A stretch of DNA of 43,354 bases from Vulcanimicrobiota bacterium (GTDB taxonomy: Bacteria > Vulcanimicrobiota > Vulcanimicrobiia > Vulcanimicrobiales > Vulcanimicrobiaceae), in assembly GCA_003161555.1 (NCBI GenBank), contig PMOG01000073.1, forward strand, positions 1 to 43,354, in the 5' to 3' direction. Position numbers and translations under genes: made by a program. Every line of letters starts with the position of its first letter. Positions within the stretch are counted from its first letter, which is position 1. A model generated the notes under the pieces. That model was not told where the DNA came from. It saw nothing but the letters and a program-made list of their open reading frames with translations, and did no database searches. Positions 18,136 through 39,360 of the stretch are shown here, in pieces.

Positions 18136-18208
18136 GGCCCTATCGTCTAGAGGCCTAGGACGCCGCCCTCTCACGGCGGTAACACGGGTTCGAATCCCGT
18201 TGGGGCTA
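18136..18208 (+). tRNA. tRNA-Glu (anticodon CTC), no encoded CCA
   Basis: Acceptor GGCCCTA/TGGGGCT, anticodon arm CCGCC-CTCTCAC-GGCGG, T-arm ACGGG-TTCGAAT-CCCGT. Confidence 0.92.
18189..18208 (+). repeat. attL core: 3' end of tRNA-Glu
   Basis: TTCGAATCCCGTTGGGGCTA, exact 20-bp copy at 29463-29482. Confidence 0.88.
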
Positions 18209-29462: not shown

Positions 29463-29482
29463 TTCGAATCCCGTTGGGGCTA
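29463..29482 (+). repeat. attR core: duplicate of the tRNA-Glu 3' end
   Basis: TTCGAATCCCGTTGGGGCTA identical to 18189-18208 and followed by CCA. Confidence 0.88.
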
Positions 29483-30875: not shown

Positions 30876-32024
30876 CTAGAAATCGACAAACGATCGCGCT
30901 GCCGGGTTGTAGCGACGCTGTGTCACGTCGGGGCCGCCTAATGCTTCAGGAGTCAGCTGTCTCGCGGCAAAGGGGTTGTGAAGGATTAGATATTCCGGTC
31001 CGCCCACGAACCTTCGAGTGTACGAGATCACAGCACTAATCCGTGTGTTACTGTCGGGGCGAAATGCGCCGTCTGCGTCCCGCCAATTGACGAAATTGCC
31101 ATTCATGACCCTGAGGGATTCGGTCCCAAAGCACGCGTCCATGACATCTTCGTCATGCATAAAGGTGCTGTTCGTGCGATCGATCACGACGATGCCGGAC
31201 TCTCCCTGGGGCAGTTGTCGGATTGCTTCACGGATTCGGCGGCGGGCTTGATCACTGTGCTCATCGCCAAAAACGTATTCGCGGCCCATTGAACTTGCAA
31301 GGTAGCCTCCGTTTTCGGATTCGGTCGCGTTCGCTTCGATTGAGAGCCCGTCAATCTCGAATGTAAACGGGAGCGCGCCCCCGGCAAGAAAATGCGCAGC
31401 GAACAGCTTTTTCATTTTCCGGACGAGTGCAGCTACATTAGCCGACTCGAGAGTTGCTTCACGAATATGTAGCGCATATGGTTGTTCGATTCGCCTAAGG
31501 CGCTGCATCACGTCTGCAGTAACAGAATCCGCGTCTTTGACATCAGGCAAATCTTGAAGTGACTTGACCTCAAACCACAACGTTAGGTCACCGCGAGAGG
31601 CGCTGAACTCGACTAGTTTAGTTCCGACCGGAGGCTCAAGTACAACATGGTAATGACGTTCTTTCATCCAAGCAGCAAAGTGGAGCTCGGAAAGCGCGGA
31701 AGCGTAAATCGAATAGGAGAGATGTCGAAACTTTGTCCGGAACTTCTCGAAGGAGCCTTCGGCCTTCAAAAAGTCAAGAAGCCGTGACAGCTCGAGCATC
31801 TGCCCAACTGCTGCTGCGTCATTTGGCTGCGCCAAGACGAAGAGCAGATAGTTTTCCGTGGTTCGACGACTCGATAGCTTGGTCAAAAACGCGTCGTCGT
31901 AGAGGTATTTCAAGCTGGGAAATTGCTCCGTCATCAGCTCACAGCGACCGCGGAGCACCTCCGCTGGCAGTAGCATGAGTTCGTCGATCGTCAAATCGCC
32001 ATCAGCTCGACCCTTCTTGCTCAT
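30876..32024 (-). CDS. hypothetical protein with possible PD-(D/E)XK nuclease-like core
   Basis: YASALSELHFAAWMKERHYHVVLEPPVGTKLVEFSASRGDLTLWFEVKSLQDL; start overlaps upstream gene stop (ATGA). Confidence 0.45.
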   Translation of the reverse strand: MSKKGRADGDLTIDELMLLPAEVLRGRCELMTEQFPSLKYLYDDAFLTKLSSRRTTENYLLFVLAQPNDAAAVGQMLELSRLLDFLKAEGSFEKFRTKFRHLSYSIYASALSELHFAAWMKERHYHVVLEPPVGTKLVEFSASRGDLTLWFEVKSLQDLPDVKDADSVTADVMQRLRRIEQPYALHIREATLESANVAALVRKMKKLFAAHFLAGGALPFTFEIDGLSIEANATESENGGYLASSMGREYVFGDEHSDQARRRIREAIRQLPQGESGIVVIDRTNSTFMHDEDVMDACFGTESLRVMNGNFVNWRDADGAFRPDSNTRISAVISYTRRFVGGPEYLILHNPFAARQLTPEALGGPDVTQRRYNPAARSFVDF

Positions 32025-32767
32025 TTGCCAGCCTCGCGTTGTCGCTCGAATTCAGGTCTGGTGATGCCCATATCGCTCAGCTCTTCATCGCTCACTCGAC
32101 GTGCGTAGACTGACGTCATAGTGTAGTCCCGGCACTGAGACTTCGGAACAAAGCGAATCTCGGATCCGAGGCTAAGGCGTTCGGCAAAGTCCGTCGGCGG
32201 AAGCCAGGGCGTCGCGAACAGGTGATGCCCCCAGTAGGGATCGCGGTCGATGACCCGACGTTCGTAGTTTTCGCCCTCAAGCCATCGCCAAATGGTGCCC
32301 ATCGTCTCGTCAACATACGCGAGCAGATTATCAAAGTCGGAATCGTTCGGAACGCCCATGACATCTGCATCTCGATGAGCTACTCGCTTTGCCACGTACT
32401 GATGCAATTTAGCGCGTCGCTTGCCGAGGTCCCGAATGACGAGTCGAACGTCGCCCTTTTCCGGGGCAATTGCAAAACTCTCTGCTCTAGCGACGTCAAT
32501 GCGTTCGAGTAACCCGGTCAAGGTGAGTTGGTCCGCTCGCCGATCGGTAATGGCCCGCAAAGCGATGTGCTGGTAGTTCTGATACCAAATGAACATGGCG
32601 TCGACGAAAAAATGGCCGAACCGCAACGCGGCTTGATCGGGCGAGATGAGAATTACCGATCGAAAGTCGTCGAATACGTCTTTGTAGTGCTTTAGCATGG
32701 CAATCTCGCGATCAACGGTATTGGCCAGGGCGATAAGCTCATCGCGCAGGGTGCGCTCTAGCCGCAT
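32021..32767 (-). CDS. hypothetical protein, AbiU2/HEPN-like
   Basis: Helical; ALRFGHFFVDAMFIWYQNYQHIALRAITDRRADQLTLTGLLERI ... RDLGKRRAKLHQYVAKRVAHRDADVMGVP; AbiU2-like layout with RRAKLH (R-x4-H) and AHRD motifs. A longer start at 32854 is possible. Confidence 0.4.
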   Translation of the reverse strand: MRLERTLRDELIALANTVDREIAMLKHYKDVFDDFRSVILISPDQAALRFGHFFVDAMFIWYQNYQHIALRAITDRRADQLTLTGLLERIDVARAESFAIAPEKGDVRLVIRDLGKRRAKLHQYVAKRVAHRDADVMGVPNDSDFDNLLAYVDETMGTIWRWLEGENYERRVIDRDPYWGHHLFATPWLPPTDFAERLSLGSEIRFVPKSQCRDYTMTSVYARRVSDEELSDMGITRPEFERQREAGK

Positions 32768-32778
32768 GTACACATCGT

Positions 32779-33852
32779 TCAGTCGCCCTTGAGTAGTCGG
32801 CGGTAATTGCGGATCGCATCGGCCGCGACGATCGTCGCTGCGGTCGTCCGCCATGGATAGCGTTCACTGCGGCGGTGCCCTCTGTTCGGGCCGGAAGCAA
32901 TAGTAACGATGAACTGGACGACGCCGCGGTCCCCGTCGGGCTTATAGTCCGCAGCGTGACCGAAAATGCCGCTTCCGAACCGCCGCGGAGCTCCGGCTTG
33001 CGAGGCATTGCCGCCAAGTTCATCATGGATGATAGAGTAGATCGCCTCCACCCAGACCGCATTTGAGACTTCGGAATCCTTCGGATTCTCGGGACCGCTT
33101 TCGAGAAACCGTGCGATACGGTCGGCGGCATCATGGCGGGCAGCAACGTCGTCGACGTCGATGATCGGAAAATAGTCGCCGACCGGATTCAAGTGATCCT
33201 GAAATGTCGGCCCAGAGAACGGCAAGAAGCGCACGCTGCGGGCGCGCTGGCCGGGCGGGCCCACGAGCATCGCGCGAACCTCGTTGTCGCCGAACTTCCA
33301 CGACGGTGTCGTCCTAAAGGGGTCGAAGGTGACGTCGACGGTCAAGCGCACGGCGACATCGGCGTTCACTCCGAGGACAAAATCGAATAGCATCGGCGCA
33401 ACATCGTATCCCGCCGGCGGCACGAGTTCGCGCACGGTAATCACGAGTACGGGTGAGCTGTCCACGTCGATTTGCTCGGCGCTTTCAATCTGGCCGCGAA
33501 GCTGATCGGGCCCCTGACCGATGACAACGTAGCTCCCGGTCGCCGGCGCCGGCAGAACTCGGTCGCTGTCGGCTTCAAAAATGCGGTCTTCAGCGTTGGC
33601 AGAGCGGTAGATGATCCGCGCCGGAATGAGCGGACCGCTCGCTTTGTAGCCCGGGAACGTCCAAACCGGCGCCCGTTGAATCCCGGTCTTCCGGAGGCGG
33701 TCAGCTTCACGCTCGACGAGCCGACGCACCAGCGCTCCGCGCGACTCTCCGGACGTTCGCTGGACCTCGGCGAGCTGGGCGATTGTTTGCGGATAAAGCG
33801 AGATCGGGACTAGTTGCGCCCTATCGGGCAGCCGCTGCTGTTGTTTGGCCAT
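32779..33852 (-). CDS. hypothetical protein with N-terminal ribbon-helix-helix-like segment
   Basis: LVPISLYPQTIAQLAEVQRTSGESRGALVRRLVEREADRLRKTG then a long domain of unknown function. Confidence 0.5.
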   Translation of the reverse strand: MAKQQQRLPDRAQLVPISLYPQTIAQLAEVQRTSGESRGALVRRLVEREADRLRKTGIQRAPVWTFPGYKASGPLIPARIIYRSANAEDRIFEADSDRVLPAPATGSYVVIGQGPDQLRGQIESAEQIDVDSSPVLVITVRELVPPAGYDVAPMLFDFVLGVNADVAVRLTVDVTFDPFRTTPSWKFGDNEVRAMLVGPPGQRARSVRFLPFSGPTFQDHLNPVGDYFPIIDVDDVAARHDAADRIARFLESGPENPKDSEVSNAVWVEAIYSIIHDELGGNASQAGAPRRFGSGIFGHAADYKPDGDRGVVQFIVTIASGPNRGHRRSERYPWRTTAATIVAADAIRNYRRLLKGD

Positions 33853-33853
33853 T

Positions 33854-33905
33854 AGTAAACTATATAGTATCACGCCAGCACTTCAGTCACAACTATATAC
33901 TTTAC
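33854..33905. promoter_or_regulatory. imperfect inverted repeat, possible operator/promoter
   Basis: AGTAAACTATATAGTAT (33854-33870) and AACTATATACTTTAC (33891-33905). Confidence 0.4.
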
Positions 33906-34078: not shown

Positions 34079-34675
34079 ATGACAGCTGTAGCAAAGATTG
34101 AGCGCCGGGTCTCCGCCGCGCCTCCTGGCCACCTCTTCACGATCGAGGACTTCCTAGCGTTCGGGCCTCCCGCTGCCGCAAAGACGGCTGCCTCCCGACT
34201 AAGCAAACGAGGGCTCCTAGAGCGCGTACGCCGCGGACTGTATTGCAAGCCTCGTGTGTCGCGCTTTGGCCGATGGACGCCCTCCCCGGAAGAGCTTGCT
34301 CTTGCCGCCGCGCACGGTAAAGCACCGGGCCCTGCCGGTGCCAGCGCGGCAGCCGCTCTCGGTCTGAGTACACAGATCCCGGCCCGTTCAACCATTGCCG
34401 TGGTGGGCAATCGCCCAAGCTCGGTCGCGAACGTGAGATTTATCGAGCGCTCCAACATCGAGCGCGTCTCCGCAGGTCTTCGATCGGCAGAAATTGCGTT
34501 GCTTGAGGTGTTGCGTGATGACCTCAAGTGGGTGGAGCTCTCCGATGCGGATATTCGTAACCGCATCCACGACCTTGTCGCCGCCGGCGACATCGACGTT
34601 CGCCGTATACGCCGTGCGGCAAAGCACGAACCGCGCCGCGTCGAAGAAAAGCTCGCCGCGGTTCTTCCCGCCTAA
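34079..34675 (+). CDS. AbiEi-like antitoxin (DUF6088-type) of a type IV toxin-antitoxin pair
   Basis: FTIEDFLAFGPPAAAKTAASRLSKRGLLERVRRGLYCKPRVSRFGRWTPSPEELALA; directly followed by AbiEii-like gene. Confidence 0.83.
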   Translation: MTAVAKIERRVSAAPPGHLFTIEDFLAFGPPAAAKTAASRLSKRGLLERVRRGLYCKPRVSRFGRWTPSPEELALAAAHGKAPGPAGASAAAALGLSTQIPARSTIAVVGNRPSSVANVRFIERSNIERVSAGLRSAEIALLEVLRDDLKWVELSDADIRNRIHDLVAAGDIDVRRIRRAAKHEPRRVEEKLAAVLPA

Positions 34676-35637
34676 TGCCACTGCTCCGCGAAAACCCCGA
34701 CGACTTCGACGTCCTCGTCGGCCGCGTCGCGGAGCACCTTGGGTTTCCTACTGCTTTCGTTGAGCGAGACTACTGGATTACGGAAATCCTTCGCTCGATT
34801 TCTCAGCCGATCGAAGACTACGAAGCGAACGTAATCTTCAAGGGCGGTACGAGTCTCTCCAAAGGGTGGCGCCTCCTCCAACGGATGTCGGAGGACGTCG
34901 ACGTCATAGTCACTTTTGGTCAAATATCGAAAAACGGCCGCGATCGCGCTTTGAAACTCGTCATAGAGCGGGTTGAACGAGATATCGGGGTCGAATCCAC
35001 GGAAAATACTGCGGAAAAGTCGGTGCACCGATCTCGCCATTTCAACTACCCACAACGATTCCAGCACGGTGCTTTGAGCGGTGAGCGAGTTTTATTGGAA
35101 CTTGGGACGCGCGGAGGTCCAGAGCCGCACCAACGACTGCGGTTACGGTCCCTTATTGCTGAGGTCGCGTGCACTGTATTTGACGTGGGCGAGGGCGACT
35201 TCGATGAGTTCGCCCCGCTCGAAATCGACACGTTGGCTCCGGAGCGTACCCTCTTTGAAAAGCTCGCCGCGTTGCACCATCTCGCTGAGACAGCTTCTGT
35301 CGACGAGAGCAGATATGAGAATCTTGGAACGCTTCTCCGCCATGCCTACGATATCGCGATGCTCCTCGAAAATGAAGCGACGCTCGCTGCTCTGAGGGGA
35401 CTTGATCGCGCGACTATGCTCAAAGACATCGAAGATCGTAGCCGTGAGAGCGGATGGCCGTGGACGCCGCGACCCGCAGGTGGGTATGCGGAAAGCTCCG
35501 CTTTCGGTCCAGCCTTCATGCAGCAGCCGGCGGTTGCAGCTGCTTACGCGCGTGCTTTAGAACTTGTTGTTGGTGGCCCGAAACCATCGCTCGCCGAGGT
35601 CGCAGAACTCGTTCGCGCGCGCGCAGATCTTCTTTAA
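34675..35637 (+). CDS. AbiEii/AbiGii-like nucleotidyltransferase toxin
   Basis: FVERDYWITEILRSI...VIFKGGTSLSKGWRLLQRMSEDVDVIV...TLFEKLAALHHL...RHAYDIAMLL; TAATG overlap with the antitoxin. Confidence 0.9.
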   Translation: MPLLRENPDDFDVLVGRVAEHLGFPTAFVERDYWITEILRSISQPIEDYEANVIFKGGTSLSKGWRLLQRMSEDVDVIVTFGQISKNGRDRALKLVIERVERDIGVESTENTAEKSVHRSRHFNYPQRFQHGALSGERVLLELGTRGGPEPHQRLRLRSLIAEVACTVFDVGEGDFDEFAPLEIDTLAPERTLFEKLAALHHLAETASVDESRYENLGTLLRHAYDIAMLLENEATLAALRGLDRATMLKDIEDRSRESGWPWTPRPAGGYAESSAFGPAFMQQPAVAAAYARALELVVGGPKPSLAEVAELVRARADLL

Positions 35638-37177: not shown

Positions 37178-37909
37178 TCAACGTATACGGCGCGCGCGTC
37201 GCTTCTTGCTCTTGTTCTCGGCACGCGTCGAGTCTCCGGTCAACTCTCCAGTAAGGAGATCCATACCGTCATAGTACATCGCACGGGCGCGTTTGTCGGC
37301 AGGGTTTTCCACGAGCGATATCTCGCGGACGCCTTCAATGTCGTGAATAATGCGATGTGCGACCTCTCCCGCGTAGATGTCGCCCGCCACATGGTTGCAT
37401 TCGCCGCCTCGGACGTGACATATGCTACATTCAACCTCGGCCTCATTAATAATCATCGCAGGACTAAAGAAGCGTTGCTTCGGGAACAGAACGCGCTCCA
37501 CGATCGATAGATGCTCCTCGAGCTGCTGAGCGGGTTCAAAGTTCGGTAACCAGCACGCCGCCCAGTATGCTGAGCCCTGCGTCGTAACGAGCATGTCCCA
37601 TGCAGCACGGAATTTGTGTTCGCTTACGAGAATCCACATGTGCATTTCACCTTGCAGCGCCCGCACGAATTCCTCAATTCGTCGCCATTCGGACGCAAGA
37701 TCATCCAAACCGGCTGCGCGCGTGCCGGCGACGGCGCGCGTACACTCAATCAGTGTGTGCTCGTGACCACTGAGGACGGCACGCTTTTTGTGTGTCGAGA
37801 ACGATAGAGTCGCGACGATGCAGTGCGCCTCATAGTCGGCAGCGAGTTGCTGAAGTGCATCGGCCGGGGTGTTCACCAATGGCCAACCCGCATCGTCCTT
37901 AGCAATCAT
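37178..37909 (-). CDS. hypothetical protein with CxxC-x6-CxH motif
   Basis: MIAKDDAGWPLVNTPADALQQLAADYEAHCIVATLSF...EVECSICHVRGGECNHVAGDIYAGEVAHRIIHDIEGVREISLVENPADKRAR; overlaps upstream gene by 11 nt. Confidence 0.6.
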   Translation of the reverse strand: MIAKDDAGWPLVNTPADALQQLAADYEAHCIVATLSFSTHKKRAVLSGHEHTLIECTRAVAGTRAAGLDDLASEWRRIEEFVRALQGEMHMWILVSEHKFRAAWDMLVTTQGSAYWAACWLPNFEPAQQLEEHLSIVERVLFPKQRFFSPAMIINEAEVECSICHVRGGECNHVAGDIYAGEVAHRIIHDIEGVREISLVENPADKRARAMYYDGMDLLTGELTGDSTRAENKSKKRRARRIR

Positions 37910-38471
37910 CAGAGTTCGCTCCGAACGCTGTACGTGCGGCCTCCACGATGGATGGCAGACCCTGGACGGGACCACGATACGTCAGCCGCTTTGCCATCCT
38001 GCCCCGTGTCACAACCAGTTCGAACGCGGCTTCATATTCGCGAGCCTCGCGTCGCCCGCAACGTGATTCGAGATGGCGCGCGAGGTGCTCGAAAAAGCTG
38101 ACTGTGATCGTCGCGCCGCCTTCGATCAAAAACGCATGCGCGAACTGCATCACAGGTATGATGATCTCGTGATCTCGTTCGTGGATCGTATGATGTCCAG
38201 ATGGTCCCGCAACGGTGATTTCTAGACCAACTTGTCGCCCCAAGATCCGTATCGTGCTCGTCATCTGCTCATAGACGAAGTCTTCTGGCGAATTCGCTAC
38301 CGCGAAGTTCCGCGGCAGCACCGACGCACGCGGCGCGTTGATTCCGAACTGCTCGAGGCGCGCAGCCACCGTCTCGTCGGCCTCGACAACAATTGGCTTA
38401 TCCAGCGCAATGACCGCCGGCCGACGATCAAGACCATCCAGGTCCGTACGTTCGAACTTGTGCTCCTTCAT
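37899..38471 (-). CDS. hypothetical protein, first gene of a two-gene unit
   Basis: Likely start MKEHKFERTDLDGLDRRPAVIALDKPIVVEADETVAARLEQFGINAPRASVLPRNFAVANSPEDF with GAGG upstream. Confidence 0.55.
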   Translation of the reverse strand: MKEHKFERTDLDGLDRRPAVIALDKPIVVEADETVAARLEQFGINAPRASVLPRNFAVANSPEDFVYEQMTSTIRILGRQVGLEITVAGPSGHHTIHERDHEIIIPVMQFAHAFLIEGGATITVSFFEHLARHLESRCGRREAREYEAAFELVVTRGRMAKRLTYRGPVQGLPSIVEAARTAFGANSDDC

Positions 38472-38498
38472 GTCGATCCTCGCGCTTAACCCATAGCC

Positions 38499-38524
38499 AT
38501 CTATCGAACGCATGTTCGATAGAT
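38499..38524. promoter_or_regulatory. LexA/SOS-box-like inverted repeat
   Basis: ATCTATCGAAC-GCAT-GTTCGATAGAT (11-bp arms); core CGAACGCATGTTCG at 38505-38518 fits CGAAC-RNRY-GTTCG. Confidence 0.55.
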
Positions 38525-38755
38525 CAGCTTAAGCCCCTCCCGGTGGTTCAGACAAAAACGACGGTCCAGGGTCACAGCTGCGCTCGATCGAGCAGCCATG
38601 CGTTCTAAGCACGTGCGCCGCCACGACCTGACATTGCAGCGCGTTGCGGCCGCAGTCAAGGCGATGAAGCGCGATAAGCGCGCCCATCATCTCGCCGGCG
38701 GTGCCCTTCCGCACTTGTTTAGGTCGAGGGCTTGGTCGTCGTCGCGGACACAATG

Positions 38756-39016
38756 ACGAATCGGCGCCCCAAGGGCTTCCTCGGCATGGTAATGGGCAAG
38801 CCGGAGATTTTCGAGAACGAGAACAGCGCGCGGGTCGTTCGCCGGATTATCGACGCGGCCGACCAGATCGCTGCGGAAAGTGGGGGAGTGATTGTGATCG
38901 ACCAGTCGTCCGTGGATCAATGGCCGTTGGCCCGGCGTCTTCGACGATCTATCGAGGGCGTGTATCAGCGCCCTCTCATATACGCGTCGCTGGCGGGACA
39001 CCCACAACGCTCATGA
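38756..39016 (+). pseudogene. possible C-terminal gene remnant
   Basis: MTNRRPKGFLGMVMGKPEIFENENSARVVRRIIDAADQIAAESGGVIVIDQSSVDQWPLARRLRRSIEGVYQRPLIYASLAG looks protein-like but lacks a clear N-terminus. Confidence 0.3.
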
Positions 39017-39360
39017 CGATCTTTGCACAATCCTAACGCGTTGAAGCCGCTGCCGCCAAACGCCCTGACCTTCGACGGCGTACGCCAAACTCGCAGCGAC
39101 GCCGACGGCCGCGGGTTTCAGCTCGTGACGACGCCGGAGAACGACGCCGCTCAAGCTCCCGGCCAGGGCTTCAGCCGCGGCCGCGCGAGCGCGCTTAATT
39201 GCCTCTGTGTCCAGGCGTTCCGGCGTCGCGCAAGCAGTCGGTACAGCGATGGTTCCTGCGGCCAATCGAGTACAGATTACCGCAGTTCAGGCGGCGCATA
39301 CGCGTCACGCTGTTCCGCATCTTGAATATAATAGCGCAATAGCAGTCAAAACTTCATGAG

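Follow-up and report, generated by a model that had tools for sequence, protein, structure and literature searches.

AbiU2, the HEPN protein (HEPN_AbiU2) of the lactococcal AbiU system, has been described as carrying an R-x4-6-H RNase motif, and AbiU2 genes have been found in restriction-modification operons (PMC3710099). In an E. coli screen that included cloned lactococcal AbiU2, AbiEii was the only one of the lactococcal two-component Abi proteins to inhibit growth (PMC3985639). Among type II antitoxins the exchange of partners is established, and promiscuous antitoxins such as Panacea consist of one conserved head gene with varied partners (PMC10440598). Other described relatives of the locus studied here are the CopG/RHH_1 regulators (PF01402), the ribbon-helix-helix (RHH) antitoxins and the YraN/UPF0102 proteins (PF02021, NF009151), which have a PD-(D/E)XK fold.

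We analyzed a stretch of 43,354 nucleotides (the window), a contig of a 2.9-Mb genome (G000) of the candidate phylum Eremiobacterota that is 74% complete. It contains three adjoining genes, P1, P2 and P3. P1 resembles the CopG/RHH_1 regulators and RHH antitoxins in its N-terminal RHH segment and its paired palindrome-like upstream site, but it has about 300 extra residues of undescribed domains, and the genes behind it differ from genome to genome. The latter property recalls Panacea; however, P1 matched no Panacea or other known antitoxin domain, is known from four loci only, and would neutralize its partners only putatively. The alignment of P2 with AbiU2 proteins of Eremiobacterota spans most of P2, whereas its partners are RHH and nuclease genes, unlike those of the AbiU system, and no AbiU1-like gene was recognized (no PADLOC match for P1 or P3). 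We tentatively propose that P1-P2-P3 is an autoregulated conflict operon, most likely directed against phages.

Results

Organization of the operon

The three minus-strand open reading frames (ORFs) that the earlier note had reported, and their spacing, were found again when ORF positions were checked in the window:

32779-33852, minus strand, P1, ATG at 33852, 357 aa
32021-32767, minus strand, P2, ATG at 32767, 248 aa
30876-32024, minus strand, P3, ATG at 32024, 382 aa

The genes are packed head to tail. The gap between P1 and P2 is about 10 bp, and the P2 stop and P3 start overlap as ATGA at 32021-32024; this near-zero spacing and overlap imply translational coupling. A GTG at 32773 is also possible as the P2 start. 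A longer start at 32854 overlaps P1, and the added stretch looks non-coding. No obvious ribosome-binding site was seen before the P1 ATG. The called frame is favored by codon usage throughout, by 0.24 bits per codon in P1, 0.19 in P2 and 0.14 in P3. Comparison of P1 with its relatives gave dN values of 0.24 and 0.37 against dS values of 1.7 and 2.0, the latter near saturation, and judged in this way P1 is under purifying selection. Neither P1, P2 nor P3 had a significant match in Pfam, PADLOC, NCBIfam or PHROGs, and a PDB sequence search returned nothing relevant.

Genomic setting

The operon is flanked by two conflict genes, as had been noted before:

34079-35637, plus strand, AbiE, transcribed away from P1
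29716-30741, minus strand, HNH_5, just downstream of P3

The HNH_5 gene has its own match to a sigma-70-like promoter (TTGATT-17-TATAAT), and an HNH_5 gene is also found beside the P1 locus of genome G077. Farther downstream, a perfect 20-bp direct repeat of the tRNA-Glu 3' end occurs at 18189-18208 and 29463-29482 and encloses a pair of integrase genes together with a set of ABC-transporter genes; the repeats are likely the att sites of an integrated element, which ends 1.4 kb before the P3 stop. The GC content of the low-GC stretch that holds the operon is 52-61%, compared with about 65-70% outside. This refines the island of the earlier note: since the att repeat bounds an integrase element that ends before the operon is reached, the operon lies in the low-GC stretch that adjoins the element and not within it.

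P1 is a member of an undescribed RHH family

The RHH-like N-terminus attributed to P1 was upheld through a homologue. The P1 homologue at locus L020, with 57% identity, passed the cut-off of Pfam RHH_1 (PF01402; 21.7 bits against 20.5, E 1.9e-4), while the window copy itself was below detection for RHH_1 in the Pfam scan. P1 comprises an N-terminal RHH domain, a middle region and a C-terminal domain that is common to stand-alone proteins:

33703-33804, minus strand, RHH core of P1, residues about 17-50, transferred by alignment from the L020 match
32782-33069, minus strand, C-terminal domain of P1, residues about 262-357, supported by profile comparison with the G108 proteins and L060

Seven short proteins of genome G108 (copies at L027, L028, L029, L030, L017 and L031) and one protein of G051 also carry the C-terminal domain, and profile comparison gave P 4e-12 with the G108 proteins and P 8e-6 with L060. 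The idea that P1 contains two copies of one domain was examined and found unsupported. Homologues of P1 were identified in G091 (68% identity), G128 (57%) and G077 (39%) among 149 genomes of the phylum. By its sequence, P1 is thus an RHH protein of an undescribed family that is missing from the family libraries searched, and we regard it as a candidate repressor or sensor.

A paired TATATA site precedes P1

Two candidate operators were located upstream of P1:

33859-33868, unstranded, proximal candidate operator, the 10-bp palindrome ACTATATAGT, just before the P1 start
33892-33901, unstranded, distal candidate operator, 33 bp away from the proximal site and reading GTATATAGT on the minus strand

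The TATATA pair recurs upstream of P1 across genomes, with spacings of 33 bp in G000, 35 bp in G091 and 31 bp in G128, and the G077 locus has a looser pair 44 bp apart. Shuffled upstream sequences contained a pair at 31-35 bp in at most 1 of 2000 cases, and of 152 upstream regions of the retrieved loci a single one had it, that one being a P1 locus. The proximal site may be either an operator for an RHH protein or a -10 box, and the paired sites could likewise be promoter -10 elements instead of operators.

Different genes follow P1 in different genomes

Same-strand genes stand behind P1 in all four genomes and are different in each, and conflict genes surround all four loci:

G000: P1, then P2 and P3; neighbors AbiE and HNH_5
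G077: P1, followed after about 10 bp by a Ymh HEPN protein; neighbors Ymh HEPN and HNH_5
G091: P1, followed after about 34 bp by a Gp49/HigB-type protein and next by an HTH protein; neighbors Fic, AbiJ_NTD4, PIN, Gp49/HigB, HTH and integrase
G128: P1, then a 291-aa protein without known family about 130 bp on; neighbors TIR and SLOG cluster 3

In G128 the operon is uncertain because the follower is about 130 bp away from P1. The loci suggest that P1 is the recurring part and that the effectors behind it are swapped between genomes; with only four P1 loci, this pattern is suggestive and unproven. P1 might even found a class, not described before, of large RHH proteins that act as sensor-repressors or promiscuous antitoxins and control exchangeable effectors (AbiU2-type HEPN plus nuclease, Ymh HEPN, HigB and others) through one conserved paired operator, which we consider possible but doubtful.

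P2 is a divergent AbiU2-type HEPN protein

HEPN_AbiU2 matches were obtained in six Eremiobacterota genomes, and five of these proteins were aligned. The resulting profile found P2 with E 1.3e-6 among about 1300 ORFs, the next unrelated ORF scoring 0.59, and hhalign of P2 against the phylum AbiU2 profile gave P 9.5e-5. P2 and the Eremiobacterota proteins have in common an aromatic helix before 'ALR', an 'SLxxLLExI' segment, AHxD and the following helix. The Pfam HEPN_AbiU2 model (PF18734) did not match P2, and its family membership therefore rests on its relatives. On this basis P2 is a divergent AbiU2-type HEPN protein: the earlier guess of an AbiU2/HEPN-like protein proved right by the phylum profile, despite the negative Pfam model.

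All the motifs quoted in the earlier note are present in the sequence, but RRAKLH, taken there for the R-x4-H motif of a HEPN protein, was rejected because it is out of register with the conserved AH. The conserved histidine is H131 (codon at 32377), within KRVAHRD. The RNase arginine is absent from P2, where the residues at -5, -6 and -7 from H131 are A, V and Y, and the R-x4-6-H arginine is also missing from four of the five aligned phylum AbiU2 proteins; RNase activity of P2 is therefore not to be assumed. A 404-aa AbiU2-like protein of G120 (L101, 778-1992) has an additional C-terminal portion, and an AH motif is not evident at the expected place. Close relatives of P2 were found neither in the 149 phylum genomes nor in the genome-collection scan, and weak matches in the phylum (E 0.001-5) turned out to be unrelated proteins in the three loci checked.

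P3 is a likely PD-(D/E)XK nuclease

P3 contains a PD-(D/E)XK signature on the minus strand:

31688, minus strand, E113
31610, minus strand, E139
31571, minus strand, E152, first residue of E152-x-K154
31565, minus strand, K154

These four residues are invariant in all four P3-family proteins that cover the core. The core matched YraN weakly by HMM (E 0.12) and with moderate strength by profile comparison (P 6.7e-4, E-V-K aligned), the latter match scoring 24.5 against 18.2 for the best of 150 column shuffles. The helix glutamate, the second acidic position and E-V-K are found in both P3 and YraN, identically ordered and similarly spaced. P3 differs from YraN in having about three times the length, in having E-F at the second site where YraN has E-I-D, and in its patchy conflict-type setting, whereas YraN was found in 54 of 58 genomes.

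The structure models were weak, with a pLDDT of 40 for the single-sequence model of P2 and a low-confidence 57 for P3, and no significant fold match was obtained. The predicted elements around residues 111-187 of P3 agree partly with the alpha-beta-beta-beta-alpha-beta order. The best fold-search match of P3 had E 0.3; the matches were at chance level and included many kinases, and HsdR and NotI, at E above 1, were not counted. The nuclease assignment made in the earlier note is favored by the invariant E/E/ExK set and the YraN profile match, with no significant match in the fold search, and we consider P3 a likely PD-(D/E)XK nuclease from its sequence.

Five other genomes hold relatives of P3 (identity about 31-46%), of which several are truncated or lie at the ends of contigs, and a genome-collection scan retrieved three genomes only, all already among the known relatives. 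A decayed family member lies about 5-7 kb from the intact operon:

38610-39121, plus strand, frameshifted P3-family copy with the 5' part missing (profile E 1.6e-10, tblastn E 5e-10)

Patchy and often broken relatives are as expected for fast-turnover conflict genes, and P3 would add a narrow family of likely nucleases of this kind.

The three genes do not travel together

Of the 149 phylum genomes, P1 occurs in four, P3 in six and P2 itself in one, and G000 is the only genome with both P1 and P3. P3 relatives occur without P1 or P2 in five genomes, P1 without P2 or P3 in three, and a second P1-P2-P3 trio was found in none of the 149. Plasmid records and viral contigs yielded no relatives either. 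The three-gene module proposed in the earlier note is thus not supported, since in these genomes relatives of P1 and of P3 stand apart from each other and P2 is without close relatives. A conserved trio is thereby refuted for the genomes searched, by a neighborhood check that the earlier note had itself named, yet this does not touch a working operon here. Judging by the sequences, P1-P2-P3 is probably a one-off anti-phage gene set.

Discussion

Putative mechanism and alternatives

Overall, we provide a putative mechanism for the P1-P2-P3 operon. The P1 RHH repressor would bind the paired TATATA sites before its own gene and hold the operon low, while its middle region and C-terminal domain probably respond to a trigger or keep hold of the proteins encoded downstream. 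Upon release of P1, P3 would cut DNA as a PD-(D/E)XK-type nuclease. P2, which does not have the canonical RNase arginine, may be a partner or regulator that assists or restrains P3 and not a free RNase. The best reading of P2 and P3 is an effector pair of the abortive-infection or restriction type. The gene anatomy, the RHH, HEPN and nuclease signatures, the paired site and the differing followers can be read from the sequence, whereas repression, the trigger, DNA cutting, cooperation of P2 with P3 and defense against phages are inferred. This explanation is our preferred one, with the caution that the trio has been seen once, that P2 has no catalytic arginine and that the defense libraries are silent on P1-P3, all of which count against it.

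We also considered that the three genes are chance neighbors which entered a hot spot of gene acquisition separately and act independently. The single occurrence of the trio in 149 genomes, the P3 relatives that are solitary or beside unrelated genes, the decayed P3 copy nearby and the adjoining integrase element with its att-type repeat would all fit such an origin. Nevertheless, the near-zero spacing and ATGA overlap imply translational coupling and the coding frames of all three genes are intact, and we think this origin unlikely, if worth keeping in mind. Somewhat less likely still is a toxin-antitoxin-like module, in which P1 would be a large RHH antitoxin neutralizing the protein behind it and P2 or P3 the toxin. 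The position of an RHH protein at the head of a short operon, the paired site upstream of it, the Ymh-type HEPN protein encoded about 10 bp behind P1 in G077 and the known partner exchange of type II antitoxins (PMC10440598) speak for this arrangement; however, the HigB follower in G091 has its own HTH partner and no need of P1, the RNase arginine is absent from P2, and lactococcal AbiU2 was not among the growth inhibitors of E. coli (PMC3985639).

Size also weighs against a toxin-antitoxin module, as the usual RHH antitoxins are far smaller than P1. The alternative we find least probable is a restriction-like pair without abortive infection, where P3 would be a DNA endonuclease that depends on modification or recognizes a specific sequence, with P2 as its accessory subunit and P1 as a timer of its expression. 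The PD-(D/E)XK core of P3, the adjoining HNH_5 gene and the occurrence of AbiU2 genes in restriction-modification operons (PMC3710099) agree with it, but no methyltransferase or specificity domain was recognized among the neighboring proteins scanned (Pfam, PADLOC, NCBIfam, PHROGs).

If the autoregulated operon that we prefer is real, Eremiobacterota, whose immunity is little charted, would carry a reusable control head for different anti-phage effectors, which would help to explain partner swapping among defense genes. The P1 family and its paired site could then serve as bait for further effectors.

Other observations

In the window, two overlapping minus-strand genes at 37178-38513 encode proteins of 265 and 204 aa with no convincing family match in Pfam, PADLOC, NCBIfam or PHROGs. 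In G128, L020 3718-5546 encodes a TIR-domain protein and then a SLOG cluster 3 protein; this stretch is close to the P1 homologue and looks like a defense island.
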